From Dactylonectria macrodidyma (taxonomy: Eukaryota > Ascomycota > Sordariomycetes > Hypocreales > Nectriaceae), in assembly GCA_020744425.1 (NCBI GenBank), contig JAGMUV010000023.1, positions 1,054,001 to 1,118,000 of the forward strand: a stretch of 64,000 nt of DNA. Direction: 5' to 3'. The position numbers were made by a program, and so were the translations under genes. The notes beneath the pieces are model-generated. The model was not told the DNA's origin. It ran no database searches and saw nothing but the letters and a program-made list of their open reading frames with translations. Shown piece after piece: positions 5,906 to 59,405 of this stretch. Within the stretch, counting starts at the first letter, position 1. Each line of letters begins with the position of its first letter.

Positions 5906-8208
5906 CAAAATAACCCGACTTGCGGCCTGCCCTCCTCGTACCTGCCACGCTGCCTCCAAAGCTCCCAACGCCGTCGTCGAATTGCCTCACCCGCCGCCTT
6001 GCTAACCCCTTTCCTGAATACTAAGCATTGGAGATAGTGCTGGCGGCTGCCGTACATAGCAACACTAGACACACTTAGACAACCGCGCATCTGACAAAGC
6101 AGAAATCTTACCTCTGATGGGACTATCAGAACGCTACTATCCCAGGATCGTAAGCATTCCAAGAGATTCAACGTTTCGATATTCATAGCTCCTCGCTACT
6201 CTATTACCGAGAGTTTGGCCTTAGAGAAGAGTCGCTCTGTCTCAGTAGACATCGGCGCAATCGACAGAATGTCAATGGCCATTAAAGATAAGTTAGGGAA
6301 CCGCCGTCGCTGCGCTGGTTCCAACCACCATTTCAGCGGATCCGATACCATAATCACAGGCTCATGGCAGTACGCTTCGTACTCGTCGTAGTCCATGTTG
6401 AAAATGGTAGCCTTTTGCTCTTTCATCCACACTTTATACCCATTTAGTCGCCTTGTAGTTGGCTCCTGTGCAAAAACTGGTCGAAGAACAGGCAAGGAGG
6501 TGGTTGATTTGTACGCCTCCCTCCATAGCTCGCCTACGCGGGCTTTAGCCCTCTCAATCCATTCAGTCTTGCCCTCCCAAGTCTTCTCCATATATGCCCA
6601 CTTGAGGGAAGGATTCAACACCGTCGCTGCTGAATAGACCGGCGAATCTTCCGTCAATTCATAGTAGTCGGCCAGTTTTGCCCACGCGGTCTCCATCATA
6701 GTTGCTAGGTGGGGGATGGTAGTGGCCTTCTTAGCCGCCTCAATGTGATGCAAGAGATAGTCCATGGCAGGCAGAACGTCAGAGATAGAAATCCCCATGC
6801 CTTCATTGGCTATTGTAGCGTCATAAAATGGCTCGAGAAATTTATAAGTCTCCGCCAAAGTTATCCAGTCAGCTAGAGTCAGAACATCGTCCTGCAGAGC
6901 CGGCTCCTAAGCACAAAATACAGTAATAGCTTGCCGGATTTTAGGCCTGAGGACCCATTCGACCATGCCATACCACGAATTCCAACGAGTGTCATTATCG
7001 CGTCGTAGCCTTAGACCGTCGGTAAGACGAGTAAACGTTTGAAGTCGCTAGGGGGTCCAAGTAATATAGACCACGATATTATACAGCTTGCCTATCGCCC
7101 CTCGCTTTCTCCATTGCTCAACTTCCTCGTCAGATGGCCCGTAGTAGGAATCAGTTGTGGGTAGTCGCTTTCCAATGAGGAACTCCATCACAGCCAGATT
7201 AATGATATGGCCGAAACAGCGAAGTCAGTAAGGAAGAGGATCGTAGAAAACATCGAACTCCTGTTCTAAGTCGTCGGAGATTTTGTCAATCATAGTATTC
7301 ATATTAGTAGCATTATCCATCATAAAGTATCCAACTTTTAACGCTATTCCAAATTCTCGTATGAACTCCATAATAGCTTCTGCCATGTTCTCGCCACTGT
7401 GCTGTCCTTCCAATTCCTTTATCCTCACCACCAGTGACTGCAGGCCATGATCTTCAGTAACGAATTGAACTGTGAATCCTATTACGCCAAAACAATTTAG
7501 CGATGTCCAGTTATCAGGAACAATGTGGATTGATAAGAGGGCATTCTATAGAGCTCGCTTTACAAACTCCTTTTTATTATCATATCCCCATTGTAAGTCA
7601 TTTTTAACCGTATCACCAGACCTCGGGAGGAGATCATCAGCGGCCGGACGAATATACCGGATAAAGTCACAAAAGGCCGGCTACTCAACATAAGCAAAGG
7701 AAAGGCTGCAAGCTACTGTGTATCAACAGTACAATTCGCGCAGAGTAGCTGGGTCTAGGGCATCTTCCTCTGCCATCGCCTTGCGTTTCTTAGTAGAGGC
7801 AAGACTTTCATCGGCCAGGAAGGCAGTGATGTCTCTAAGGCGACTTTGCATCACTTCCCGCATAGTCTCTTACCTTCCAGAAACCATGATCTTATGCTCT
7901 ATCCGCAAATAATTAACAATAGCGGACGACCCACTAGAGCAGTTATATTTCTTCGCTCTTTTCTTATCAAAGCAGGGTTAGCAATGCCACCATTTCATTC
8001 CATTAGAATCGACCCAAGCTGCCGGAGTACCCTTCCCTTCTTCGCTTCGACAGTACCGCCAGATGGGAGACGTCTTTTTGCAGGGCGCACTAGAGGGTGG
8101 CGAAGATGATGGTGATAATGCTGTATGAGCAAGAAGGTCGGAGTCAACCGTATGGCTGGTACTGCCAATAGCACTGGCAGTCTCGGAGTGATCCACGCTA
8201 GAGGACAT
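5896..8208 (-). pseudogene. hAT transposase (BED zinc finger, RNase H-like core, C-terminal dimerisation domain)
   Basis: One reading frame of about 770 codons runs from the ATG at 8208 to about 5896 without frameshifts but with several in-frame stops, for example 7978-7980 and just after 6198. From the N terminus: a Ser/Pro-rich leader; a BED-type zinc finger (SPIWRYCR.., WVDSNGMKWWHC, then SSGSSAIVNYLRIEHKI after the 7978 stop); a catalytic-core segment (GYFMMDNATNMN, near 7300); and the hAT dimerisation domain, with DPLKWWLEPAQRRRFPNLS near 6330 and IAPMSTETERLFSKAKLSV near 6220, continuing past a stop into MNIETLNLLECLRSW at about 6150. The enzyme would cut and join element ends. The stop at 7978 is TAA where a Gln codon CAA is plausible, a RIP-type C-to-T change. 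Confidence 0.92.
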
Positions 8209-12325: not shown

Positions 12326-12814
12326 TCATACGAAATCTAAGCAATTTCCATCCCCGCATAGTCTTACTGCAGCATAATAAATGTCTGCGATGCCCATGCA
12401 AAACATTCGTCTCACCAGCTCGCCAAAGCCACGGTACTTGCCACATTCGTTATACAGATCCATCTTGAAGACATCGTCAATACGCAACCTCCTGGCTTCA
12501 GTAAGCCTCCCTTGCGCCCCCACGTTCTGATACCCGAAATCGTGGCGTCTGCAGCTTGGTATGAAGTTGAAACCAGCAGGCATATCAGGAGACCAGGAGC
12601 ATTCATTAGATGACCAGTCTAAGCAGGAAGGATTCCGGGCGTCCCGAGCGCGGCTAAAGGTGTCCATATCGACTTCAAAGAGCAGTCTGTCGACTTCAGC
12701 GGCTGTGCATCTGTCTTGCCGTGCGACGTTGTATGATGAAGTAGACTCATCTACAGCTGGAGAAGCGGCTGAGACCGCGGAAAGAGTGACAAAAAGCCAG
12801 AAAAATAGCTTCAT
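12326..12814 (-). CDS. Secreted phospholipase A2 (fungal/bacterial-type PLA2 fold)
   Basis: A single exon encodes 162 residues. Residues 1-17 form a signal peptide (Met-Lys-Leu start, hydrophobic core, Ala-rich end), so the enzyme is probably secreted. The core shows DRCTAAEVDRLLFEVDMDTF, CSWSPDMPAGFNFIPSC and the catalytic His-Asp pair in SCRRHDFGYQN (His91, Asp92). A second conserved block follows (RLRIDDVFKMDLYNEC). At least eight cysteines suit disulphide bridging. Enzymes of this family hydrolyse the sn-2 ester of phospholipids using Ca2+. Length and architecture match the small fungal group-XIV type. It stands alone, with about 1.4 kb and 2.5 kb of gene-poor DNA on either side. No frame damage is visible, so it is likely functional. 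Confidence 0.9.
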   Translation of the reverse strand: MKLFFWLFVTLSAVSAASPAVDESTSSYNVARQDRCTAAEVDRLLFEVDMDTFSRARDARNPSCLDWSSNECSWSPDMPAGFNFIPSCRRHDFGYQNVGAQGRLTEARRLRIDDVFKMDLYNECGKYRGFGELVRRMFCMGIADIYYAAVRLCGDGNCLDFV

Positions 12815-12839
12815 TTTGAAACGTAGTATAATATTCTAG

Positions 12840-43073: not shown

Positions 43074-43490
43074 ATGCCTGACCCCGACATCCAGCCCAAG
43101 GAGGCCGATCTGGAAGCTGCGAATAATCTTCGCATCACCTTCCAGGACGGTCTCGGCAGGGATGGCGCATCCAACGACCCGGACGCATCCCATGGACGCT
43201 CTCGCACCCGGTCGTTATCTCGCCATCGCTCCCGCTCGCGTTCCAGCTCTCGCAACCGCATCCAGACTACTTCGCCGTACTCAGGCGTCCAGATCGAATA
43301 CCGTACCCTGTCCATCCAGGTGACCGAGGCAAAACAGAACGACGACACGCTCGAAGACGCCAAGGACGCAAAAGGCCTCAAGAACAAAGATGACGAAGAC
43401 TACTTCGCCAAGCTTCAATACCACGAGCTACAGGTTGAGCAACTATGCCAACAGCTCAACGTCAGCCCTGGAGTAGGTCTCTCAGAGAAT
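43074..43490 (+). pseudogene. N-terminal part of Na+/K+-type P-type ATPase, cut by hAT-2
   Basis: Starting at ATG 43074 (context ACCAAGATG), 139 codons encode a cytoplasmic N terminus. There is a Ser/Arg-rich stretch (RSRTRSLSRHRSRSRSSSR) near residues 43-63 that could be phosphorylated, the family block GVQIEYRTLSI and YHELQVEQLCQQLNVSPGVGLSEN. The coding frame runs into the transposon and stops at 43503-43505. The continuation lies at 46656. Joining 43490 directly to 46656 gives GLSENAAAVRLGRDGNNSLP in frame, so the insertion alone broke the gene. The pre-insertion protein would have been 1,100 residues. Confidence 0.93.
43483..43490. repeat. Left 8-bp target-site duplication of hAT-2 (CAGAGAAT)
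   Basis: CAGAGAAT precedes the terminus CAGCGCTCATC and recurs at 46648-46655. It encodes part of Ser-Glu-Asn of the ATPase. Confidence 0.95.
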
Positions 43491-46400
43491 CAGCGCTCAT
43501 CATAAATCAATCAAATCAACTTTAGGGTAAAAGTTAATTTGTTTAATGGGCTTCCGATCTAAAGTTGATTTATTTGATTTGATTGGCCCCTCTCAATCAA
43601 CTGTATAAACGACCTATATACCTAGTATATGAAGGTATTTCGCCTACCCCAAGTCTTAATTACCTACCTAACTGCCTAGCTTTACCTTGCTGTATCAGAC
43701 CCAGTTCCTCAGGCAATGAACTCGCTCTAGCATATCCGCGCCTATTAAGAGCCTTTAAGATATTAGTGTCAGCTTAGCCAGGCTGAACTGTCTCTTGCAG
43801 TCAGTCGCCATCACCAGAATAGCAAAGACATCTAAGGCAAAGCTGCTTAATATCGGGAATAAAGGCTTATAGTCTCTCCACTATTAGATCAGCTCCTGCG
43901 TATCTTATAGCTTAAGACAGAGGTACTTATCCAGCTCGCTAACACTGCCGCCCATTATAAATATCTTTCTCATTCTACTATTAATCTATTAAGTATAGTA
44001 GTCATCCTCCTTACCCATTTTCATTAATAAAGGAGCGGACTTAGACTATTCTTTGTCCTTCTACTAGCTAGTATAATACTACTGCGCGAAGTAGTCCTTT
44101 ATGCCTGCCTTCACATCACAAACCCAGGCCAATTACTCCTCAGTAACCCAAGTAGCCTCTAACCAGCTAATGCTGAATCTCAAATAAAGGATAACTACTG
44201 CTATAAATAAGAAAGACTCTCCAAGCTTACTATAATACTCATCCAGCTTCTTCTAGCCATTATTAATAGATGCCCGGATATATGCTCAGTGGTCTGCTTA
44301 TAATAAGCTCTTCTAGAAGACCTCATACGCTAGTAACTTATTAAGCGCCGCATATTCAGTCTAAGAGCGCTCTAGCAATGCAGACACCATGAATCTTAAC
44401 ATTTAGCTTTACTATTAAGATACATAAACCTCATCGTCATCAAAGCGAGCAGGGCGACAACGGGCACGGGTCGGTCAGGTTTTAGACTCCATTAGGGGCG
44501 TAGACGCTATTCTAATCGGCTTAAGGTCATCTAGATTCATCACCCTTATTATCTTAGCTATAACCTCATTATAGAAGCCCTTCCAGTCCTTAAAATGCTT
44601 AAGTAGGTATTCCATCCCTACTAAAACTTCCTAGAGGCGCCCGTAGCCGTCGCCTTTACCCTAGCCTTAGGTTCGCATCGTCTGAAGGTATAGAGGCGTA
44701 AGAATCTCATTAACCTCACTAAGAACGCGCTAATCCTCATTAGATAAGATATTATTAGCAGGGATGCGTTTTACTTTATCTTACTTGCCTTCGAATATAA
44801 AGATAAAGGCCCTAATATCAGTCTGCTTCTGTAGAGCCCTCTTAATCATTATATAAGTAGAATTCTACTGCATTTCATTATTTAAGATGACCTTAAGCTC
44901 AGTAGTTAATTCTTTATAAAGACAGTATCCTTCGTACTCCTGCTTATAAGTAATGCGCTTAAAATATTCACTATGCTAAGGTAATAATTAAATGAACTTA
45001 ATAATATTATAGAGCTTCTTAATTAGACCCTTTAAATGCTAATAATGAAGATCTTACTCTAGAAGACCTCTTATACTATTAATATCTAACTCTAGCTTAA
45101 AAGAGTTAGTGTCTTTATTAAAAAGAAACGTATGGATAATAAGGTTAAGAACATGGCTATAGTAATGCATCTAATGGGCCTTAATATTAGCAGGCTTAAT
45201 CGAAGGGTTAAGCAGCCTATAGAAGTAGTGTAAATACGTATTATTTATAGCTAGGTTATTAGAAATAATAGTCCTAATCTGTCCTTAAATCTCCTATAGT
45301 TAAATAATATTAAATAGTGTATTAGTAAGGTTCTTATTACTATAAGTACCTAACTAATAATATAGAGCGAGCAACCTGGACTATTAGTACCTAAGTTTAT
45401 TTATAAAGTGTGTAAAAACAGCTATTATTATAAGGCAGTTTAGTAATGTCTAGAGATCAAAGCTAATATGAATTTTCATTAGAGCACTGCCTAGTTCCGC
45501 TTTAATAATATCCCTCTTAGAGTCAAAGATCCTCTATAGCTCTTTAGAAATAGAACTACTACTCTAAGGAATCTAAAGCGCTAATTTATAGTCGAACTAA
45601 TAAAAGAGCTCCTTTAGAAACCTATGCTCAAATATTATAAATAGCACATTACTATTAATAATAAACCCAATACTTAGTTCTTATATAGCTTTAACCTTTG
45701 CTCTTAGTATTATACTCTAGTTAAGCCACAGTCATTTAGTAGTTATATAAGAGTAAAGATTAATCGCACTATTATCACTAGGGCTTAACTGGCTCGCTAG
45801 AGTAATCCAGTAAGCTCTGCGCAAGTCAGTAGATAGATACAGTATATTAGTATAGGGGATGAATACATACTTCTGAAGATAATCTACTGTAGAGGATATA
45901 GCTTATACTAAGAAAAATTCTAGTCAACCCTTTATATTATATTAACTACAGCACTACACATAACCGATTGGCTGCTCCTAGTAATTCAATTCGACGAAGA
46001 ACATACTATGCGATCTAATCCAGCTTTTTCTGCCTTTTATACCCTTCCGAACTAGTAAAGCTTCTTAAATAAAGCGATAGTTTTTCTAGATAACCTTCAG
46101 TAAATCCTCAATAGTCAGGTTAGCAAGCAGCTCTCTAACAGCAGCCTCCTCGAGCTGCTGGGCTATAGTCTTTAGTTATAATAGTTACAAGAATGCAGAA
46201 AGAAAGAGTGAAGTAGGGCAAGGCATTAAAATCTCTAACAGAAGACTCGCCAGTAAAGAGAGCGCTAGTAAGTCTAGCATCTTATTACTAGTATTATATA
46301 GTGTTAATAGCGAAGTTAATGCATTGCAGTAAGATATAGAGTGTGTCAGCCGGTCTAGGGTTTAGTATAGGTTAGCCAGCAATAGTGAGTACTAATCAGA

Positions 46401-46647
46401 CTATGACTTTATATAGGAGTAAGAAGTATTACCTATCTATAGCCATCTTATATAGGGTAGGACTAGCATAGAGCAGACCATATTAATCCTTTTAGACAGT
46501 TTAAATATAGTATAGCACATATCAACTTTATCAAATCATATTAACTTACAAATCGCTAGAATTGATTTAATTGAAGCGAGGAATCGGCTAGGTTGATTGA
46601 TTTGATTGGGGTGATTGATTGATTGAGTTGATTTATGATGAGCGCTG
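43491..46647. mobile_element. hAT-family DNA transposon (hAT-2), 3,157 bp, RIP-degraded
   Basis: Perfect 20-bp terminal inverted repeats (43491-43510 and 46628-46647, starting CAGCGCTCATCATAAATC) are flanked by the duplication CAGAGAAT. The interior is very AT-rich, with abundant TA dinucleotides and stop codons, yet its minus strand still reads as a hAT transposase. The termini share their first eight bases, CAGCGCTC, with the right end of hAT-1, so the two belong to related families. Just inside both ends lie short AATCAATCAAAT-type repeats. The element sits inside a P-type ATPase gene. Confidence 0.96.
43600..46230 (-). pseudogene. hAT transposase, heavily RIP-mutated
   Basis: On the minus strand the C-terminal dimerisation domain is readable around 43960-43780: WRDYKPLFPILSSFALDVFA then VMATDCKRQFSLAKLTL, and further down ADMLERVHCLRNW. 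Near 46050 a BED-finger-like part is seen (GYKRQKKLD.. followed by ELLGAANRLCVV). TAG/TAA codons occupy positions where Trp or Gln are expected, consistent with TGG-to-TAG and CAG-to-TAG change. No large deletion is evident; the overall span fits a transposase of about 800 residues. Exact start and end are not resolvable. Confidence 0.8.
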
Positions 46648-49541
46648 CAGAGAATGCCGCTGCCGTTCGCCTTGGGCGAGATGGCAACAACTCGCTGCCG
46701 CATCCCAAGACCAACTATATCAAGAGAACGCTCAAGTACATCTTTGGTGGCTTCTGTTCCGTTCTTTGGGTCGGCGCCATTATCTTCTTCCTCTGCTGGC
46801 AGCCCCTGAGCAACCCCCCTTCCGCGCAGAATCTGTCTCTTGCTGTCCTTATCCTCATTGTCATATTCCTCCAAGCTGGCTTCTCCGCCTTCCAGGACTG
46901 GTCTACCGCAAAGACCATGAATGCCATCCTCGACCTGCTGCCCTCTTATGCCCTGGTCAAGCGTGATGGGGACCTCAAGAGCTTGCCCACCATCAGCCTC
47001 GTGGCCGGCGATGTCGTTCATCTCCAAGTTGGCGATAAAGTCCCAGCTGATCTCCGCCTCATCAGCCACTCTGGTGACATCCGCTTCGATCGATCTGTTC
47101 TTACCGGCGAGTCGGACGAGATTGAGGGCGCCGTCGACCCGACCGACCGAAACTTCCTCGAGAGTCGCAATATCGCCTTGATGGGTACTACTGTCATGAA
47201 TGGCAATGGTGTCGGTGTGATCGTTCTTACTGGTGGCCGAAGCGTCATGGGCCGTATCGCAAGCTCGACCGCTGGTGTCAAAGACTCTGCTGCCCTCATT
47301 CAGCGAGAGATCACCCGCTTTGTCAAAATCATCGTATGCATGACCATCTTCCTTGCCTTGCTCATCTTAGTAACATGGGCTGGCTGGCTGCGCGTCGACC
47401 ATCCTGGCTTCATGAGTGTCCCCTCCATGCTTGTCAACGTCATGGCTTGCGTCGTGGCTTTCATTCCCGAGGGTATGCCTGTTGCTGTCGCGTTGACACT
47501 CATGATGATTGCCCGTCGGATGAAGGCCGTCAACGTACTGCCGAAGGGACTGTCTACTGTTGAGACACTGGGCTGTGTGAATGTCATCTGCTCGGACAAG
47601 ACTGGCACTCTCACACAGAACCAGATGTATGTTAACTCTGTCGCGTTCGTCGATCAAAAACTCGACTCTGCTGACGACTTCCATCATCTACATGAGGGAA
47701 GTGAGCCGAACCAGGCCGCGGCAGCGATGCAGCGAGCGTCCATCCTGTGCAACGACGCATCGTTTGACCCGACCACGATCCATCTTCCCATCCACGAGCG
47801 AGCAATCCAGGGCAATGCTACCGACAGTGCTGTCTTTCGGTTTGCTGCATCTGGTACTTCGGGAGATAGCCTGAAGAAGGCGACTCCCCGCGTCTTTGAA
47901 GTCCCTTTCAATTCTAAAAACAAGTGGATGCTGGCACTCTTCCAGTCGGATGATGAGAGTGGAAGATACCGCGCCATCATCAAGGGTGCTCCGGACATTC
48001 TTCTCCCTGGCTGCACTCGGTACTGGTCCTATGAGTCCAATTCGGCCCAACCTCTTGACGACGAAGCCCGTCGCAAGTTCCAGCACATCCAAGACGAAGC
48101 TTCTCGCCGGGCCGAGAGAGTCATTGTCCTGTGCGAGAAGCTCATCACTCCTCGCAGCGTCGCTGGAACCAACGCATTCAGTGACGAAGTTTCTCACTCC
48201 GCCATTCAAGATCTCACCATCGTTGGCATGCTTGGTATCATTGACCCGCATCGTCCTGAGATTCCTGCTACTGTTGAGCAATGTCGCCGCGCTGGAACTC
48301 GCTTTTTCATGGTCACAGGTGATTACGCGCTGACTGCTGCGGCGATTGCTCGCAACACAGGCATCTTCACCGGGAGCGGCGATCCAGACACGATCGACAG
48401 TCTCCAAGCTGGTATTGGGAACAGCGAAAAACCCAAGTCAAAGAGGGAACGGGCTCCATTGATTAAGCGAAGCCTGCTCATGGAAGGCTCAAATCTCAGT
48501 CGTCTGACCCAAGAAGACTGGGACATCGTTTGCGCCTACGAAGAAGTCGTCTTTGCACGAACGACTCCAGAGCAAAAGTTGCGAATCGTAACTGAGCTGC
48601 GCGCCCGCGATAACGTCGTAGCTGTTACTGGTGATGGAGTTAACGATGCTCCCGCACTGCGCGCCGCCGACGTTGGAGTCGCCATCGTCACGGGCAGCGA
48701 CGTTGCCATCGAGGCGGCAGACCTGGTCCTTCTCGATCGTTTCGACTCCATCATTGACGCTATTCGCCTCGGTCGTCTTGTTTTCCAGAATCTCCAAAAA
48801 GTCATCTCCTACCTCCTCCCAGCTGGCAGTTGGTCAGAAATTTGGCCCGTCATCCTCAACGTTTTCTTTGGCGTACCCCTTCCACTGAGCGCATTCCTGA
48901 TGATTATCATTTGCGTCTTCACCGATCTATTCCTCAGTCTTTCTCTCATTATGGAGAAGGAAGAGTTTGACCTATTATCGCTGCCTCCTCGCAACCACAA
49001 GCACGATCATCTGATCAACGCCAAGATCTATACACAAGCGTACCTCTTTACGGGCTTCATGGAGACAATCACCGCCCATGCGATGTTCTTTCTCTACATG
49101 TGGAAGTATGCCAAGATGCCCGTAAGCGAACTGTTCTTGCTTTTCGAAGGGTATGCTGAGGGATATCGCGGCTACACCCAGGATGAGCTCGTGCAGTTTA
49201 ACAACACCGGACAGTGTGTTTATTTCGTCACGCTCGTTTTCTTGCAGTGGGGAAATATTCTTGCTGTGCGGAACCGAAGGCTGAGTATTTTTCAGTCTAA
49301 TCCGCTTACGAAGGAGAAGCGGAACCCTTGGCTAGTTCTCAGCATGATTATCAGCCTGGTCATTGCCATCTTTGTTACAGAGGTACCGGGGATTCAGAGG
49401 CTTTTCGGAACCGCTTCCGTGCCTATTGAGTTCTGGTTCATCCCGATCCCCCTGGGCCTTGGTATTTTATGCGTGGATGAGATCAGGAAGGTTATTGTGA
49501 GGCAGTGCCCAGGCTCGTTCTTGGCTAAGATCGCATGGTAA
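46635..49541 (+). CDS. P-type ATPase (Na+/K+-ATPase-like, type II), 5'-truncated by hAT-2
   Basis: A 968-codon frame in which the first seven codons come from the transposon terminus and its duplication; ATPase sequence starts at 46656 (AAAVRLGRDGN). It keeps the whole catalytic unit: TM1-TM2 (GGFCSVLWVGAIIFF..), actuator motif LTGESDE, TM4 FIPEGMPVAVALTLMM, phosphorylation site ICSDKTGTLTQNQM, nucleotide-binding KGAPD, DPHRPE, MVTGDYALTAAAIA, TGDGVNDAPALRAADVG and C-terminal helices (GVPLPLSAFLMIIICVFTDL..). Fungal members pump Na+ or K+ across the plasma membrane. The N-terminal 139 residues are on the far side of the insertion (43074-43490). The tandem ATGs at 46635 and 46638 lie in the terminal repeat, so a shortened but catalytically complete protein could be made if transcribed. 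No frameshift or stop in 2.9 kb suggests the insertion is recent. Confidence 0.93.
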   Translation: MMSAAENAAAVRLGRDGNNSLPHPKTNYIKRTLKYIFGGFCSVLWVGAIIFFLCWQPLSNPPSAQNLSLAVLILIVIFLQAGFSAFQDWSTAKTMNAILDLLPSYALVKRDGDLKSLPTISLVAGDVVHLQVGDKVPADLRLISHSGDIRFDRSVLTGESDEIEGAVDPTDRNFLESRNIALMGTTVMNGNGVGVIVLTGGRSVMGRIASSTAGVKDSAALIQREITRFVKIIVCMTIFLALLILVTWAGWLRVDHPGFMSVPSMLVNVMACVVAFIPEGMPVAVALTLMMIARRMKAVNVLPKGLSTVETLGCVNVICSDKTGTLTQNQMYVNSVAFVDQKLDSADDFHHLHEGSEPNQAAAAMQRASILCNDASFDPTTIHLPIHERAIQGNATDSAVFRFAASGTSGDSLKKATPRVFEVPFNSKNKWMLALFQSDDESGRYRAIIKGAPDILLPGCTRYWSYESNSAQPLDDEARRKFQHIQDEASRRAERVIVLCEKLITPRSVAGTNAFSDEVSHSAIQDLTIVGMLGIIDPHRPEIPATVEQCRRAGTRFFMVTGDYALTAAAIARNTGIFTGSGDPDTIDSLQAGIGNSEKPKSKRERAPLIKRSLLMEGSNLSRLTQEDWDIVCAYEEVVFARTTPEQKLRIVTELRARDNVVAVTGDGVNDAPALRAADVGVAIVTGSDVAIEAADLVLLDRFDSIIDAIRLGRLVFQNLQKVISYLLPAGSWSEIWPVILNVFFGVPLPLSAFLMIIICVFTDLFLSLSLIMEKEEFDLLSLPPRNHKHDHLINAKIYTQAYLFTGFMETITAHAMFFLYMWKYAKMPVSELFLLFEGYAEGYRGYTQDELVQFNNTGQCVYFVTLVFLQWGNILAVRNRRLSIFQSNPLTKEKRNPWLVLSMIISLVIAIFVTEVPGIQRLFGTASVPIEFWFIPIPLGLGILCVDEIRKVIVRQCPGSFLAKIAW
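46648..46655. repeat. Right 8-bp target-site duplication of hAT-2 (CAGAGAAT)
   Basis: Identical to 43483-43490. It directly abuts the right terminal repeat and the resumed ATPase frame. Confidence 0.95.
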
Positions 49542-49985: not shown

Positions 49986-52166
49986 CTATTCTATCCGGAT
50001 TTGCTGCCACGCTCTCCCAAGGTCCATTGCTTCACCATCCATCATCCCGTGAACAAAGCACTCGCCAATAATTTTATAGTAACCGGACATCTCCCTGATA
50101 GCAACAGGCACGCTACAACCCCGTATAATGCAAATCCTAAGAAGGTTGTCAGCTGCGTCTGGGTTGAAATCAAAAATGAGCGGGACATACCTGTCTCCCG
50201 CGCATGCCTCTCTGGGAGCCAGTCCGAATAGCGACAGACCCGATGATTTGAACAGTTGTCTGCCTATCACCGTCGAAAGCACAAGTCGTCGGTATCTGGC
50301 CACCTCAGCCATTGCGTTTTGGTCTATCTGCCGGAGTATTCCCCGAATGAGCTTGATGATGGCATCGGAAAACTGGACCTCAGGTTTGCCGCCCTTGTCA
50401 ACCTGTATGAATGAGAGATCCAGAGCCCCCGTTTGGCAAATCTCCTCGAGACGTCTTACAATCTTGATCTGCTGATCAGGGTGTCGAACCGCAAAGTTGA
50501 ATCGCTCCCAGCGTTCGCCTGGGGTAAGACGTGAGTTGGAGTCCTCGCTGAAGACCCTTTTTAGTTCCAAAACCACGCCGTCAGTGGTGTTAGAGAAGAG
50601 TCGAAAGTGCGACCCTTTGAAGAACGCGCAGCCACAGAGGCGCTTGTACGGAGTGGAAACAGTGCTTCCATTTTCGTCTAGGCCGGCAACCAGAGTCTTC
50701 CAGAAGTGATCCGGTGGGTCCTGCGTTGTATCCATCCATCCTGCGAACTTGGGCCATCCATTCGAGATGGCGTCTGGGTTAGCGCATAGGGTGGATGCTA
50801 TTGAGTCCAGTGTGAAGGCATCCAAGATGAGGCTCGTGGGCCCGCGAAAGAGCGTGGTCAGGCAGGGCACACGGGATGAACCCGAGGCCCTAAAAAGTGG
50901 TGCCTCTGCAGTTCCAGTCAAATCCCTCTGCCGGATCTCGCGATGCTGGTCATCTATAGTCGAGTGGTTGGTCGAACGTCGAAACCTAATCCAGGAGATA
51001 TCCATCTTCCATAACGCCCAGTATCGCAGGATGATATCTATGCTACCACCAGAGGCTTCAATTGCACCGGTAATCATGTCTTTGTACACCTCTAACGCAG
51101 TCTTCTTGTAATCTACGTCGATCCTCGAAGACGGCTTGGCAAATTGCTGAAGCGCATAGACCGTATCCTGCCCCTCCTGACATCTAAAGCTTGTGCACAT
51201 AGTAAGAAGGTCTTCCAGGGGGTGAAGACCCACCACTGATCTCGTTTGCCGGTGCGTGCCCTCCACGAATTCGCCATCAATCAGTCGGACTAGGTTGTGG
51301 GCATTGGACTGATAGAACGCCTCAGTAGTCAATCCTATGTCAGGATCGTAATCCGATGTTGGTTTATCAGCAACCAAGTCTTCGTGGTATTCATGGAGGA
51401 GCCGTATTACACGACACATATCAGCCCATTCTGCGGAATGAGCGCGCCCTAAACCATCGGCAGCGACGAGGATGGCTCGTTGGGCTAGCGTGACTTCTTG
51501 AATGATCCAGCGCCGCCCGAACCATTTACAGACAAGAAGGTCTCGCAAGTGACTCCTAGTTTCTTGGTTTGCTGACGTCTGATACCGTCTTTTCATGATT
51601 TCTTTCAAGTCTTGGATAGTAGCCGAGTTTCTGACAAGGCTGATTGTATGTTGTGGAGAGGGCAGCTCGAGCCAAATAACAACACACTTGGCACAGCTGA
51701 AGATGGTCGCCATTTTGGTGACCTGAGCTGATTTCTCGTCGGAGTCTTGTTGATTGATGCATATGGTATCTATCCACAAATGCCTGATTGCGACTTGGTC
51801 GCGAAGTGCGGCGAGGGCTTTCCGAATCGTCGGTTTAACTTTGACGGAAGATTGTAGCACGGCGGCATCCTTAACAAGGACAGTCTCTGTTGCGTGCTCG
51901 TCCCCCCAGCACCAAGAAAGTGCCTCATAATCTGTCTTAAGGTCTGTCGGAACGATGGAAAGCTCGAGTGGATCATTGGTTTCCCCAGGATGTAAATGGA
52001 TTAGTCGGCTCAGGCCACATTCTTCAACGGCTGGTACTGATATGGTTTCGGGATTGTCGCATGGTCCATCGAGGCAGCGGAATAGTCCCTTATTTAGCCA
52101 GCGAGGATTCTTGCAAATCAGAGGCGGCGAAGAAGACGATGGAAGCGTTGGAGGTGTCTGTGAGCG
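49986..52166 (-). CDS. HET-domain (heterokaryon incompatibility-type) protein, 5' end disturbed
   Basis: One frame is open from 52166 to the stop at 49986 (about 726 residues). The HET domain starts with DYEALSWCWGDEHATETVLV (about 51930) and continues HLWIDTICINQQDSDEKSAQ, FSCAKCVVIWLELP and CKWFGRRWIIQEVTLA. Proteins with this domain trigger programmed cell death after fusion of unlike hyphae. The remainder (about 400 residues) is not assigned but contains TVYALQQFAKPS, typical of the region after the domain. The frame has no ATG before the domain; the first in-frame ATG, at 51860, would remove the first HET motif. An ATG at 52185 (or 52170) is one base out of frame and precedes an A7 run at about 52173-52179, so a small indel or a missed intron is likely. 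Possibly a pseudogene. Confidence 0.85.
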   Translation of the reverse strand, partial: RSQTPPTLPSSSSPPLICKNPRWLNKGLFRCLDGPCDNPETISVPAVEECGLSRLIHLHPGETNDPLELSIVPTDLKTDYEALSWCWGDEHATETVLVKDAAVLQSSVKVKPTIRKALAALRDQVAIRHLWIDTICINQQDSDEKSAQVTKMATIFSCAKCVVIWLELPSPQHTISLVRNSATIQDLKEIMKRRYQTSANQETRSHLRDLLVCKWFGRRWIIQEVTLAQRAILVAADGLGRAHSAEWADMCRVIRLLHEYHEDLVADKPTSDYDPDIGLTTEAFYQSNAHNLVRLIDGEFVEGTHRQTRSVVGLHPLEDLLTMCTSFRCQEGQDTVYALQQFAKPSSRIDVDYKKTALEVYKDMITGAIEASGGSIDIILRYWALWKMDISWIRFRRSTNHSTIDDQHREIRQRDLTGTAEAPLFRASGSSRVPCLTTLFRGPTSLILDAFTLDSIASTLCANPDAISNGWPKFAGWMDTTQDPPDHFWKTLVAGLDENGSTVSTPYKRLCGCAFFKGSHFRLFSNTTDGVVLELKRVFSEDSNSRLTPGERWERFNFAVRHPDQQIKIVRRLEEICQTGALDLSFIQVDKGGKPEVQFSDAIIKLIRGILRQIDQNAMAEVARYRRLVLSTVIGRQLFKSSGLSLFGLAPREACAGDRYVPLIFDFNPDAADNLLRICIIRGCSVPVAIREMSGYYKIIGECFVHGMMDGEAMDLGRAWQQIRIE

Positions 52167-54308: not shown

Positions 54309-57300
54309 GCCGTCGCAAAGCCCCCCTGCCCGAGCGATATCCAGCAGTCTAGGTGGGTAAGAGGTGGATACATATACGGCCAAATAGAGGACGATATACC
54401 CCAGGCAGTTCGAAACTGCCACACCTGCAAGCAAGACCTGCCCGAAGTCGAATTTCGAAGCGTCAAGGACCCTACGAAGTTTACAAGGGACTGTGCTAGC
54501 TGTAGGGCACGCCGAAGGGAACGTGTAGCCGAATCCCGAGCCGCCGTTGCCGCCATGCGGAATATCGCCTTGAGGCTATCGCCACACAGAGCCACGAAAA
54601 GGACCGATTCTGTAGCTAACCTGACGCCTCCAAGGCGGACTGCGCCAACGCCTGCGTCTGTGCACGGCTCACAACCTCCTGCCACGCCTGCTTTATTCCG
54701 TAGCCTGGCGCCCGCACTCCAGGGACTGCCTAGACCTCTGCTGGGCCCATCTACCCCAAGCACGGTGGAGGGACCTTCCCCTATCCCTCCTACCCTTAGC
54801 CTGCCAAGAGTAGTTCTGGGCACGCCGATTCCTCAAACGCCAATTCCTGAAGGCACTCTTCCAACGGCTCCTGTTGTGCTAGGCACGCCTATACCACAGG
54901 AATCGTTCCCTACCACTCCTTCATTACTGCCACAGGGTCATCGCCGCGGCCGCTATGCACGTCAAGGCATTTTTAACCCACGGCCACGGCCACAGCCTCA
55001 AGAGCGACAGTTCGATCAGATAGTTGATCCACCTTTTACAGGGGACCTTAACTTGCCTGCCCTTAGTGAGGAGGATCAGGCCCTTGTGCGGGAGTTCTAT
55101 ACTGCCCTGAACGACGACAAGATGCATAGTTGCATTCGCTGCCGGGAGCATTGGTTCGATATGAAGCGAAATAGCTTGCAAATCTGCAGCCGCTGCATTA
55201 GTCGAGACAAGGAAAGAGCCCCTGACGAGCCCTACTTCTTTAGCGCTACGAATAACCTTGACTTTGGGGAAGTCCCTGGCAATTTACCTGATCTAACGAT
55301 GGTTGAGGAGATGCTTATTACTAGGATTCACGTACACGTGAAGGTCCTACAGGTACGTGGCGCTCAATATAAATACCGCGGCCACGTTGTCCACTTTCTT
55401 CGCAACGTTGGTAGGCTATTTGAAGAGCTCCCAGTCCTACCTGAAGAGCTAGATATCGTACTCCTGCGGCCTCCTAATATGGAGGGCGACCCTCGCTTCC
55501 AGCAGCAGTTTGCTCGCGATTTCCGGGTACGCCGCTCATGCCTGTTGATTTGGCTGCATTACTTACAGCGCCACCACCCGGGCTATCGCGATATCGTCGT
55601 GAGCCAGGATCGCCTGCAACGGCTTCCTCTTGACGGCAGCATAGTTGATTCCGTTGCTAGCCAAGTGGCTGACATACCTGACGGCGAGGTCCCCCAAGGC
55701 CCTGTTGAGGAGGTAGTAGAAGAGGATCCTTACGATGCCGACGCATCAGCGATCCCGAATTTGCAGGTTACCGATACCGAATTAAACGCCCTGCAGTCCC
55801 GATTCCTTAATGGTACCCCTGACCCTGAGCGTATGGCTGATCTTGAGCATATGCCGCTTGGCGCGCAGGCTCAACACCAGATGCCGTTGCCTTCCATTCG
55901 CAGGACCCCTATCAACGAATTCAACCGTTCCCAGCCGCTGTTAACGCTCGCATTCCCTACCCTCTACCCTGACGGCAAGGCGGACTTCGTGGAGCCTCGC
56001 CTACGGAGCATCACGTACCAGGACTACCTTGCACATGCGATGAGATGGCAAGACGGACGTTTTGCCCGCCATAAGACGTGGCCCTTCGTCGCCCTCAACA
56101 CGCTGTTACGTGCGCAGGTCCGAAAGCGAAGCAACTACTTCGTCAAGCAACACGAAGGCCGCCGTCAAGCCCTTACACGCGCTAACCTAGAGGAAGCGAT
56201 GGCTAAGCCTGACGAGCCAGAGGCTCAGGCACTGATCCAGTCGATCACGCGCCAAGCCGCTGTAATCAGGGGCACCCGGCCGTATTAGTATAAGCAAAGG
56301 AAGGAATTAGAAGCATATGCCTATAATCTAAGTAGGCCTGGCCTTTTCACTACTGCAAGTACAGCTGATTACCACTGGGAATCCCTATACCGTCATATGC
56401 CTCGATTCTATGAGTGGCAAGCAGCTCCTGAGGCGAGCCGGATGGCCCTGTCCCGGCAACTACTGCGAGACAACGCCCACATCGCCGCTTACCACTTCCA
56501 TAAGCGTTATACGCTGTTTAGAACTATTGTCCTGAAGCAGAAGTTTAACCTAACGGACTTTTGGGGTCGCTACGAGTGGCAGGGCAGGGGGTCCAGTCAC
56601 CACCACGGCCTCTATTGGTTAAATAGCCATCCAGACTTAGATCCTGACAATGATCAGTCCCGGGAGCGATTCGCCCATATCTAGGGATATCACATATCTG
56701 CTGTTAACCCAGAGACTCAGCGAATACAGGCGCCTAGGGAAGGGAACCCCCTGATCCTTAATCTATTACAGCAGCCCCTTACCGTTAGGTTCCTATCAAT
56801 AGTAGTTAACCGCGTGCAACGACACCGCTATAGTAACTATTATATGCAGCTCAATAAACATACCAAGCAGGTCGAGTGCCGCTTTGGATTTCCTCACGGG
56901 CAACGCCTACTAGCCTCCCTAGACAAGGTTCCTCATTCTAAGCACTGGAGCTTCAGGGGCGAGCGGAATGATAGCCAGATTAACCACTATAACCGCTTGC
57001 TTACAATTGCGTGGCTGGCCAATACAGATATCTCCCCCTGCACGAGCCTACAGCAAGTAATCGATTACGCAGCTAAATACTGCTCCAAGTCGGAAAAGAA
57101 AAGTGAGTCTTTTGCCCAGATTGGGAAAGCCCTGATGCCCCGGGTCAAGGACCATAACCCCCTTATTTCCTTCACATCAAAGCTCCTAAATCAGCTAGTT
57201 GCTGAGCGGGATTACTCAAAGCAGGAGGTTTGCCACTTGCTCCTCGGCCTGCCGTTACAGGAGGGCTCACGAACCTGCCTATATGTTGATTGCCGTAATC

Positions 57301-59405
57301 CTGACAAGCATTCCCGCTCCCTACGGCTCGACGGCGATGAGGTTAACGAGGCCCCCAACGTCTACGAAAAGTACTATCGACGCCCAGAAGCCCTAGAGGA
57401 CCTGACCTATGTTTCCTTTCTTAAATACTGGAATTTCCGCTCTAGGGACCCTTCTATGTGGAAGCAATGGCAGCCAGGCAACGTTAACGGCAGGCCTCGT
57501 GTATTGGTCTACTTTCCTCGCTATCAGGCTGATCCAGAAGGTCAACAGTGGCCAGATTACTGCCGCGTAAAGCTAACATTGAACCACCCACATCGTCGGC
57601 TTGATGAGCTCCTCACATTTGACGGCCAGCGTTTTAATTCTCACGCTCAGGCCTTCTCCTATTGTTGGCAGCACCACAGTCATGGTGATGACCATTACGG
57701 CTGGCCAAAAGAGGCTCGACTACAGCCTCAAGAGGATCAGTACGAGGCTCTGCCTGTAGAGGAAGAATTTGATGACGAAGACTGGATTCGTCTCGCCGCC
57801 CTTTTACCTGACAACCCCCTTACCCAGGAAGGTCTTGACCTACTTGGCCGCCGCGATATCGACGTTAATTACGACTGGACACGGCATGTAGGTACTTATC
57901 CGGAACTTCGAGACAGTTACTGGAAAGACCTTATCGCTAGCCACCCTATAGCCAACGATGTGGAGGTCCTTGGCCCTCACTGGCGTGATCAGCTGAACCC
58001 ACAACAACGGCTCGTGTACGACACCTTCATAGGCCACTTCCAGGCGCAAAGTCTTACTCAAATCCTTCTCCACGTTGACGGCGGTGGTGGCACAGGCAAG
58101 TCCTTCCTTATCAAGGTGCTATCCTCCCATCTCCAGGCGGCTGCCCTACCGAATCCTAGCCCTATTTGTCGCGTAGCGCCAACAGGCGTTGCGAGTAACC
58201 AGATACAAGGCAGCACCATTCATTCATTGCTACGCCTCCCAGTAGGTGGTACTTTTACCGACCTTCCCCCAGCCGACGCGGCCGCCCTTCAGTCCCGCCT
58301 ACGGCACGTCAAATACCTCGTTATCGATGAAAAGAGCATGCTAGGGCTTGAGCAGCTAGCGCGGATCGATTCCCGCCTGCGGCAGGCCTTTCCACAGCGT
58401 AGCCTCGAGTTCTTTGGTGGCGTGAGCGTCTTGCTGGTGGGCGATTTCTTCCAGTTACCACCCGTCCGGCAAAAGCCGCTGTATTCGACTAGCACCAGCC
58501 TGTCTCCGCTGGAAAGGAGAGGGCAGGTGGCCTACCGGTTATTTGACCGCACCGTCTTCCTGACCACGGTGCAGCGCCAAACTGGCGATGATCAGGCCCA
58601 GTTCCGTCAGGCATTGCAGGAACTGCGTGAAGTTCAGTTATCTATACCGTCATGGAACCTCCTTAGTAATCGGGTACAGGCCAAGCTAACACAGAGCGAG
58701 ATTGACAGCTTCAGGGCCGCTTTGCGGGTGTATTCTACAAAGGCCCGGGTCAACGAGTACAATTACGAGCATATGGTGCACCTCAACGACCCGGCAGTAC
58801 AGGTGGAGGCAAAGAATCGGGGCAACGGCGCGGGGCAGGCGCCAAGCGACAAAGCTGGCAACCTATCTAACAGATTCCCTGTTGCTAAAGGCGCCAGAGT
58901 GATGCTTACGACTAATCTATGGCAGCCAGTTGGCCTAGTTAACGGTGCGCAGGGCACTGTATACGACATCGCCTGGAACGCAGGCACTAACCCATGGGAA
59001 GAACCCCCGGCGGTTATTATGGTGGATTTCGATAGCTACGACGGGCCGCCGTATCTAACAACGAACGAGGGCAGGAAAATCGTACCCATCCTTCCAGTCA
59101 CGCGTGATTTCCTAGTGGGCAACGAGACCTGCGCTCGCACGCAGTTTCCCCTGATCGTGGCGTTTGCTATCACCGTTCACAAATGCCAGAGCCTAACGAA
59201 GGATCAAATAGTTACTGACCTCGCCACACGCGACTTCCAGGCCGGTATTAGCTATGTTGCTGTCTCACGGGTAACCTCGCTGCAGGGCTTACTCCTTGAG
59301 GCGCCTTTCGATCGTCAGAGCCTCTATAACCACACGCCCACGGAAGGTTCATGTGCCTGTGTTTCCTACGTGCTGCGTTTACGGCTAACTATAAGGCAGG
59401 GATGA
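54309..59405 (+). mobile_element. Helitron Rep-helicase (rolling-circle transposon), two in-frame stops
   Basis: One frame of 1,699 codons runs from 54309 to the stop at 59403-59405. It is interrupted only by TAG at 56286-56288 and TAG at 56682-56684, both where Trp is expected (PY[W]YKQRKELEAY, FAHI[W]GYHISAVN). Order: Cys motif CHTCKQDLP..CASC, Pro-rich linker, Helitron_like_N domain (SNYFVKQHEGRRQ.., LLRDNAHIAAYHFHKR), HUH nuclease motif SSHHHGLYWL near 56590, two-tyrosine motif VIDYAAKYCSKS near 57060, and a Pif1-type SF1 helicase. The helicase shows Walker A GGGGTGKS (near 58085), VIDEKSML, FGGVSVLLVGDFFQLPPV, TVHKCQSLTKDQIV and YVAVSRVTSLQGL. The first ATG in frame is 54555, downstream of the Cys motif, so the real start is lost or spliced. 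Element ends were not fixed. Confidence 0.93.

Follow-up and report, generated by a model that had tools for sequence, protein, structure and literature searches.

In the 64,000-nucleotide stretch of Dactylonectria macrodidyma DNA analysed here (the window; positions 1054001-1118000 of contig C16 in a 77.3 Mb genome, whose contigs C1, C15 and C39 are also mentioned below), a hAT transposon of 3,157 bp interrupts a P-type ATPase gene 1,100 codons long. We think it likely that the insertion is recent, that the element was later altered by repeat-induced point mutation (RIP), and that, having fallen into the single ortholog of this pump in the genome, it leaves a null or strongly hypomorphic allele; we infer the null effect, the timing and the silencing. 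The features concerned are these (window coordinates, strand, description).

43074-43490, + strand: 5' part of the P-type ATPase gene, codons 1-139; it reads into the element as far as a stop at 43503-43505, giving a 143-aa peptide
43483-43490, no strand: left target duplication, CAGAGAAT, 8 bp
43491-46647, - strand: hAT element, 3,157 bp, RIP-mutated and with its transposase frame broken; assigned through PF05699 in the unmutated copy of the same length, L013
43491-43510, + strand: left terminal inverted repeat, 20 bp
43659-46400 (element coordinates 169-2910), - strand: region that corresponds to the transposase frame of unmutated copies, 914 codons without a stop
46281-46647, no strand: 367 bp from the first Met of the transposase (46280, reading leftward) to the right end; this transposase upstream region adjoins the downstream half of the pump gene
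46628-46647, - strand: right terminal inverted repeat, 20 bp, whose outward (+) reading contains ATGATGAGCGCTG
46635-49541, + strand: open frame of the downstream half, which gains two in-frame start codons, ATG 46635 (968 aa) and ATG 46638 (967 aa)
46648-46655, no strand: right target duplication, CAGAGAAT, 8 bp
46656-49541, + strand: native 3' part of the P-type ATPase gene, 961 codons and stop, with P-type domains
47595-47615, + strand: phosphorylation motif DKTGTLT, read from the sequence

The insertion and the gene that it splits

The initial annotation had placed the insertion to the base by perfect 20-bp termini and a duplication of CAGAGAAT, and we recovered both: the two element ends match each other as inverted repeats for exactly 20 bp, and the terminal 20-mer has no other site in the window with up to 3 mismatches (0.01 expected in shuffled sequences). 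The 8-bp duplication, the short terminal inverted repeats and the C-terminal dimerisation domain found in the unmutated sister copy make this a hAT transposon; it differs from typical members of the superfamily in being RIP-mutated and without a long frame. When 43074-43490 is read on into 46656-49541, there are 1,101 codons and no stop but the terminal one, in agreement with the earlier proposal that excision restores a pump of 1,100 residues. The product of the upstream part matches the N-terminal parts of the relatives P0002 and P0003. The downstream half is open as had been described, with a stop-free frame over 46632-49541 that includes both new ATGs and the 968-residue form; the 967-aa form from ATG 46638 is the database protein P0001. 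This half also has the P-type core and the C-terminal membrane domain (PF00122, PF13246, PF00702 and PF00689).

In the sequence of events that we favour, a hAT element with surviving unmutated family copies would have entered the gene within its 5' coding part, duplicating 8 bp; the target would be the single ortholog of a P-type ATPase conserved in filamentous ascomycetes, of the IIC-like 'NK/PAT' type. RIP would have hit the inserted copy in place or, less likely, before it was moved by the transposase of another copy, and the single-copy host gene alongside would have been spared. The native promoter would then give at most the 143-aa N-terminal peptide, and the downstream 961 codons, their promoter and start lost, would most likely give no working pump. 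Their frame would still be open because too little time has elapsed, and the in-frame ATGATG would be a 1-in-3 accident of the terminal repeat. RIP-mutated DNA is commonly silenced or heterochromatic in related fungi.

One way in which the gene might still function is removal of the element from the mRNA as an intron, leaving a near-full-length pump short of a few residues. A donor-like GTAGGT at 43473 and an AG at 46651 would join in frame (1,095 aa), and there are 14 in-frame donor/acceptor pairs within the ranges tried. However, pairing this best donor with the better acceptor, CAG at 46649, breaks the frame, and the in-frame acceptor ends in GAG; between 46500 and 46700 there is one branch-like motif, at 46541. 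Introns in these fungi are typically far shorter than 3.2 kb, and we regard splicing as very improbable.

The pump and its relatives

A protein search found 7,766 homologues, of which 120 are listed and are those referred to here. Among these, the closest relatives with a name come from Ilyonectria, Fusarium nematophilum and Cylindrodendrum (90-92% protein identity), which points to a Nectriaceae-like ascomycete; the three closest full-length relatives have 1,102-1,105 aa. Only three of the 120 are shorter than 1,000 aa: P0001, P0076 (which is named 'partial') and P0028. The last, of 951 aa, has a similarly short N terminus (its longest contig is 7,322 bp) and is perhaps a gene model without its first exon. 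All 17 near-clade relatives that were aligned, from the 21 listed (P0002-P0022), run continuously through the insertion site at '...GLSENAAAVRLERDG...', the comparison being of protein models and not of DNA.

The genome itself holds one ortholog (48 of 68 candidates scored). Its next best match to the pump is a paralogue on C1, also IIC-like, that is 31-50% identical depending on the stretch. A stray 86-bp fragment on C39 (L039, near 129702-129794) resembles the 3' part of the pump gene at 85% identity, over about 30 residues, and has a stop in frame.

The earlier description of the pump as 'Na+/K+-type' was too specific. TIGR01106 (IIC) is its best NCBIfam model, with a score of 655.6 bits that lies far under the cut-off of 946.1, as do the scores of two full-length relatives (671 and 674 bits). 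The cation-site acids of the animal pump are Glu327, Glu779, Asp804, Asp808 and Asp926; the residues that match E327, E779 and D808 in the alignment to 9kcg (human Na,K-ATPase) are retained, but D804 is replaced by Cys and D926 by Asn.

Loss of this gene may be tolerable. According to a Beauveria bassiana study, single deletions of the two IIC/NK genes, nk1 and nk2, changed vacuolar pH and the examined phenotypes little; in the nk2 mutant Na+ was lower at pH 9 and so was K+ at pH 7, and germination was lightly delayed in the other mutants, nk2 excepted (PMC7588218). Because these single deletions are mild, a null allele is plausible in nature, and by analogy it is plausible that the window pump is dispensable. 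The likeness to NK1/NK2 drawn here is one of group, both being IIC-like by best NCBIfam model; the window pump shares 69% identity with a relative from Beauveria brongniartii, P0092. The Beauveria alleles are engineered deletions, whereas the present one is a natural transposon insertion.

What the insertion cuts away

In the numbering of P0003, the first 136 residues are lost, and E137 and N138 are restored via the duplication. We scored conservation as mean identity over 48 relatives, for which the core gives 0.757. The loss had been said to involve only a Ser/Arg-rich N terminus, but it goes further: besides the Ser/Arg-rich stretch at 43-67 (0.68), it takes segments near core conservation at 68-88 (0.78) and 107-139 (0.70). 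The Pfam domain Cation_ATPase_N (PF00690) scores 47.3 bits in P0003 (115-181) vs 21.1 bits in the 967-aa form, barely above the cut-off of 20.4, and there it begins at profile position 24 of 69; by this profile match, a third of the domain is gone with the cut.

A structure model, weak overall (mean predicted local distance difference test, pLDDT, of 64 and predicted template modelling score of 0.43), was used for N-terminal confidence alone. Residues 1-118 have pLDDT below 50, residues 121-140 have 72-79, and a helix is modelled at 120-126. Alignment of the P0003 sequence to solved Na,K-pumps begins at residue 113 or earlier in most chains, upstream of the cut, so that about 20 residues of the N-terminal domain are lost besides the tail; structural alignments mostly begin at model residue 117 (root-mean-square deviation 22-26; Z 32.2 for 3wgu_A). 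The truncation thus extends beyond a regulatory tail into a conserved and probably ordered N-terminal domain of the pump. A literature search on N-terminal deletion of animal Na,K-ATPase found no relevant title, and one on autoinhibition listed P-type pumps of other kinds.

The hAT family and its terminal start codons

Searching the genome with the element gave at least 42 matches, six of them full length (3,157 bp) with the window copy counted. Two of the full-length copies, L013 and L014, are identical in sequence and keep a 914-codon stop-free frame, of 874 aa from the first ATG; PF05699, the hAT C-terminal dimerisation domain, matches the 874-aa frame of L013 with 63 bits. The longest stop-free stretch in any frame of the window copy is 80 codons. 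Judged by these frames, the window copy is dead while unmutated family copies persist. A remnant of a different hAT transposase, also with PF05699, lies at 6196-6906 (- strand).

All six full-length copies have the same 20 bp at either end, and three of the six have an 8-bp target-site duplication. An outward ATGATG, within ATGATGAGCGCTG, is present and identical at both ends of all six, so any insertion of such an element into coding sequence has one chance in three of supplying an in-frame start.

Since L013 and L014 retain their frames and the window copy retains both 20-bp ends, the allele might be unstable, a transposase acting in trans excising the element and restoring or footprinting the gene in some nuclei or strains. 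Against this, no empty allele was found in the assembly, which has one ortholog, and silenced DNA is possibly a poor substrate for the transposase; we hold such instability to be quite unlikely, if less so than splicing.

L013 (C15:534198-537354, + strand) and L014 (C15:454530-457686, - strand) lie about 77 kb apart in opposite orientation with their 8-bp flanks swapped: in element orientation, CTCAAAGG is on the left and CTTGACAG on the right of one copy, and the reverse holds at the other. An inversion through recombination of one copy with the other would leave such a mark, as would an assembly orientation error. A repeated element with such a possible assembly error elsewhere raises the question of whether the window copy, too, was misplaced, into the pump gene. 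The target duplication at the site is perfect, however, and the full mutation pattern of the window element is absent from the 28 other loci compared (many of them fragments, some overlapping), which makes an artefact the least probable explanation of all.

RIP mutation and the age of the insertion

The window copy differs from L013, without gaps, at 470 of 3,157 positions; the differences comprise 469 C>T or G>A changes, a single T>C and no transversion. The lack of transversions means that ordinary divergence is very low. Mutated sites make up 61% of CpA (262/430), 45% of CpG (167/374), 7% of CpC (26/366) and 3% of CpT (14/434). Against L011, 452 of the 457 differences are C>T or G>A (5 others), and against L012, 443 of 462 (19 others, 5 of them transversions). 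The RIP indices of the element are 1.39 (RIP-like by the quoted threshold), 0.90 (not RIP-like) and, for the composite, 0.49 (RIP-like); those of the host flanks are below the quoted thresholds (0.91/0.92 for the left 300 bp, 0.44/2.0 for the right 300 bp).

The nearly pure C>T change and the preference for CpA are as in known RIP. The genome also has two genes with a cytosine methyltransferase domain (PF00145, in open frames of 1,334 and 449 aa), candidates for the RID/DIM-2 type. A difference is the heavy mutation of CpG, strong beside that of CpA in both RIP-hit copies (250/374 CpG sites in L010), whereas a Zymoseptoria study gives 240 of 242 mutations in one duplication as CpA (PMC10294615). 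L010 is the full-length copy nearest to that in the window; it shares 382 of the 470 mutated states and has 299 further differences. The mutations of L009 and L010 overlap more than independence would give in every context (CpA 237 vs 202 expected, CpG 134 vs 112), and a first round of RIP may have been common to these two.

The pattern of divergence thus looks like RIP rather than age, and the copy looks young. Given 0.0003-0.003 substitutions per site, the chance that the downstream frame, if free of selection, has gained no new stop is 0.98-0.78, or 0.92-0.44 once frameshifts are added (0.1 indel per substitution assumed). Because the element looks too young for decay, the open downstream half is uninformative on function, and at such an age a test of its substitution pattern would have little power. 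As a stand-in for the ratio of nonsynonymous to synonymous substitution over 46656-49541, itself of little power, we counted changes at invariant columns. P0001 has none at the 323 columns where every other sequence agrees (0-2 in each of the 17 further near-clade members); at nearly invariant columns it has three, all conservative (V195I, L615M and F834L). It has 4 near-clade singletons, where other members have 0 to 26.

Possible expression of the downstream half

Might the downstream half nevertheless be expressed? Divergent or spurious transcription from the transposase upstream region would enter the pump gene, and the ATGs of the terminal repeat would start an altered 968-aa protein without the N-terminal regulatory region. 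Several observations that weigh against a recent null allele have to be considered here. The strongest point for a truncated pump is that the right end, facing the gene, is the upstream side of the transposase. Parts of what is lost are poorly conserved (1-42, 0.37; 89-106, 0.34). The lack of changes in P0001 at the 323 invariant columns fits a working protein, though it equally fits one killed very recently. As to age, L013 could itself descend from the window copy, and the insertion would then be older than the divergence of L013; even so, the absence of the element from the aligned relatives makes it lineage-specific. The indices of the left 300 bp (0.91/0.92) may reflect a slight leakage of RIP into host sequence.

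There is also a precedent in yeast. Ac/Ds is a hAT element, and in SATAY libraries an engineered Ds derivative serves as insertional mutagen. The SATAY study describes MiniDs insertions tolerated in the 5' coding regions of some essential genes, for which its authors speculate about spurious transcription, and an N-truncated Pib2, from MiniDs in PIB2, that is a semi-dominant gain of function (PMC5466422). Such N-truncated products can evidently be made, some of them functional, which likewise counts against a null allele in the window (PMC5466422). In both situations an element of hAT type sits in a gene's 5' coding part, and the downstream half is possibly expressed in N-truncated form; they differ in that the MiniDs is laboratory engineered and the window element is natural and RIP-mutated.

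Locally, ATG 46638 is in frame and has A at -3, the 300 bp upstream hold one other ATG alone on the same strand (46403, opening a 22-codon frame), rightward TATA-like strings occur at 46295, 46410 and 46449, and the catalytic domains are all kept. The TATA-like strings, however, are confined to the 2 full-length copies with heavy RIP mutation, the other 4 having none of them, and thus look like by-products of RIP and not like an evolved promoter. The truncation cuts into a conserved, probably ordered domain, and the ATGs adjoin 3 kb of RIP-mutated DNA of a kind that is commonly heterochromatic. We therefore judge an expressed N-truncated pump unlikely, although it is the foremost of the alternatives; somewhat less likely still, and argued by analogy, is the specific arrangement in which hAT ends with a stop-free outward ATGATG and an outward-firing transposase promoter start the altered 968-residue cation pump. 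The 'deregulated pump' of the initial annotation accordingly finds no support, while not being refuted: openness is uninformative, an in-frame ATG arises one time in three, and a conserved domain is cut.

Were the downstream half expressed, a transposon end would here have created an N-truncated ion pump in nature, and with six full-length copies at hand the hAT family could be tested as a portable start signal. If, as we favour, the allele is null or strongly hypomorphic, it shows clearly that an open frame next to a transposon should not be taken as evidence of function.

Other features of the window

12329-12835, - strand: small phospholipase A2-domain protein (PF09056)
49989-52166, - strand: protein with a heterokaryon-incompatibility (HET) domain, encoded immediately downstream of the pump gene and convergent with it
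54309-59405, + strand: Helitron-like element, whose long open frames carry Helitron_like_N, DUF6570 and PIF1 helicase
about 60-64 kb: AT-rich, RIP-like block adjoining the Helitron-like element

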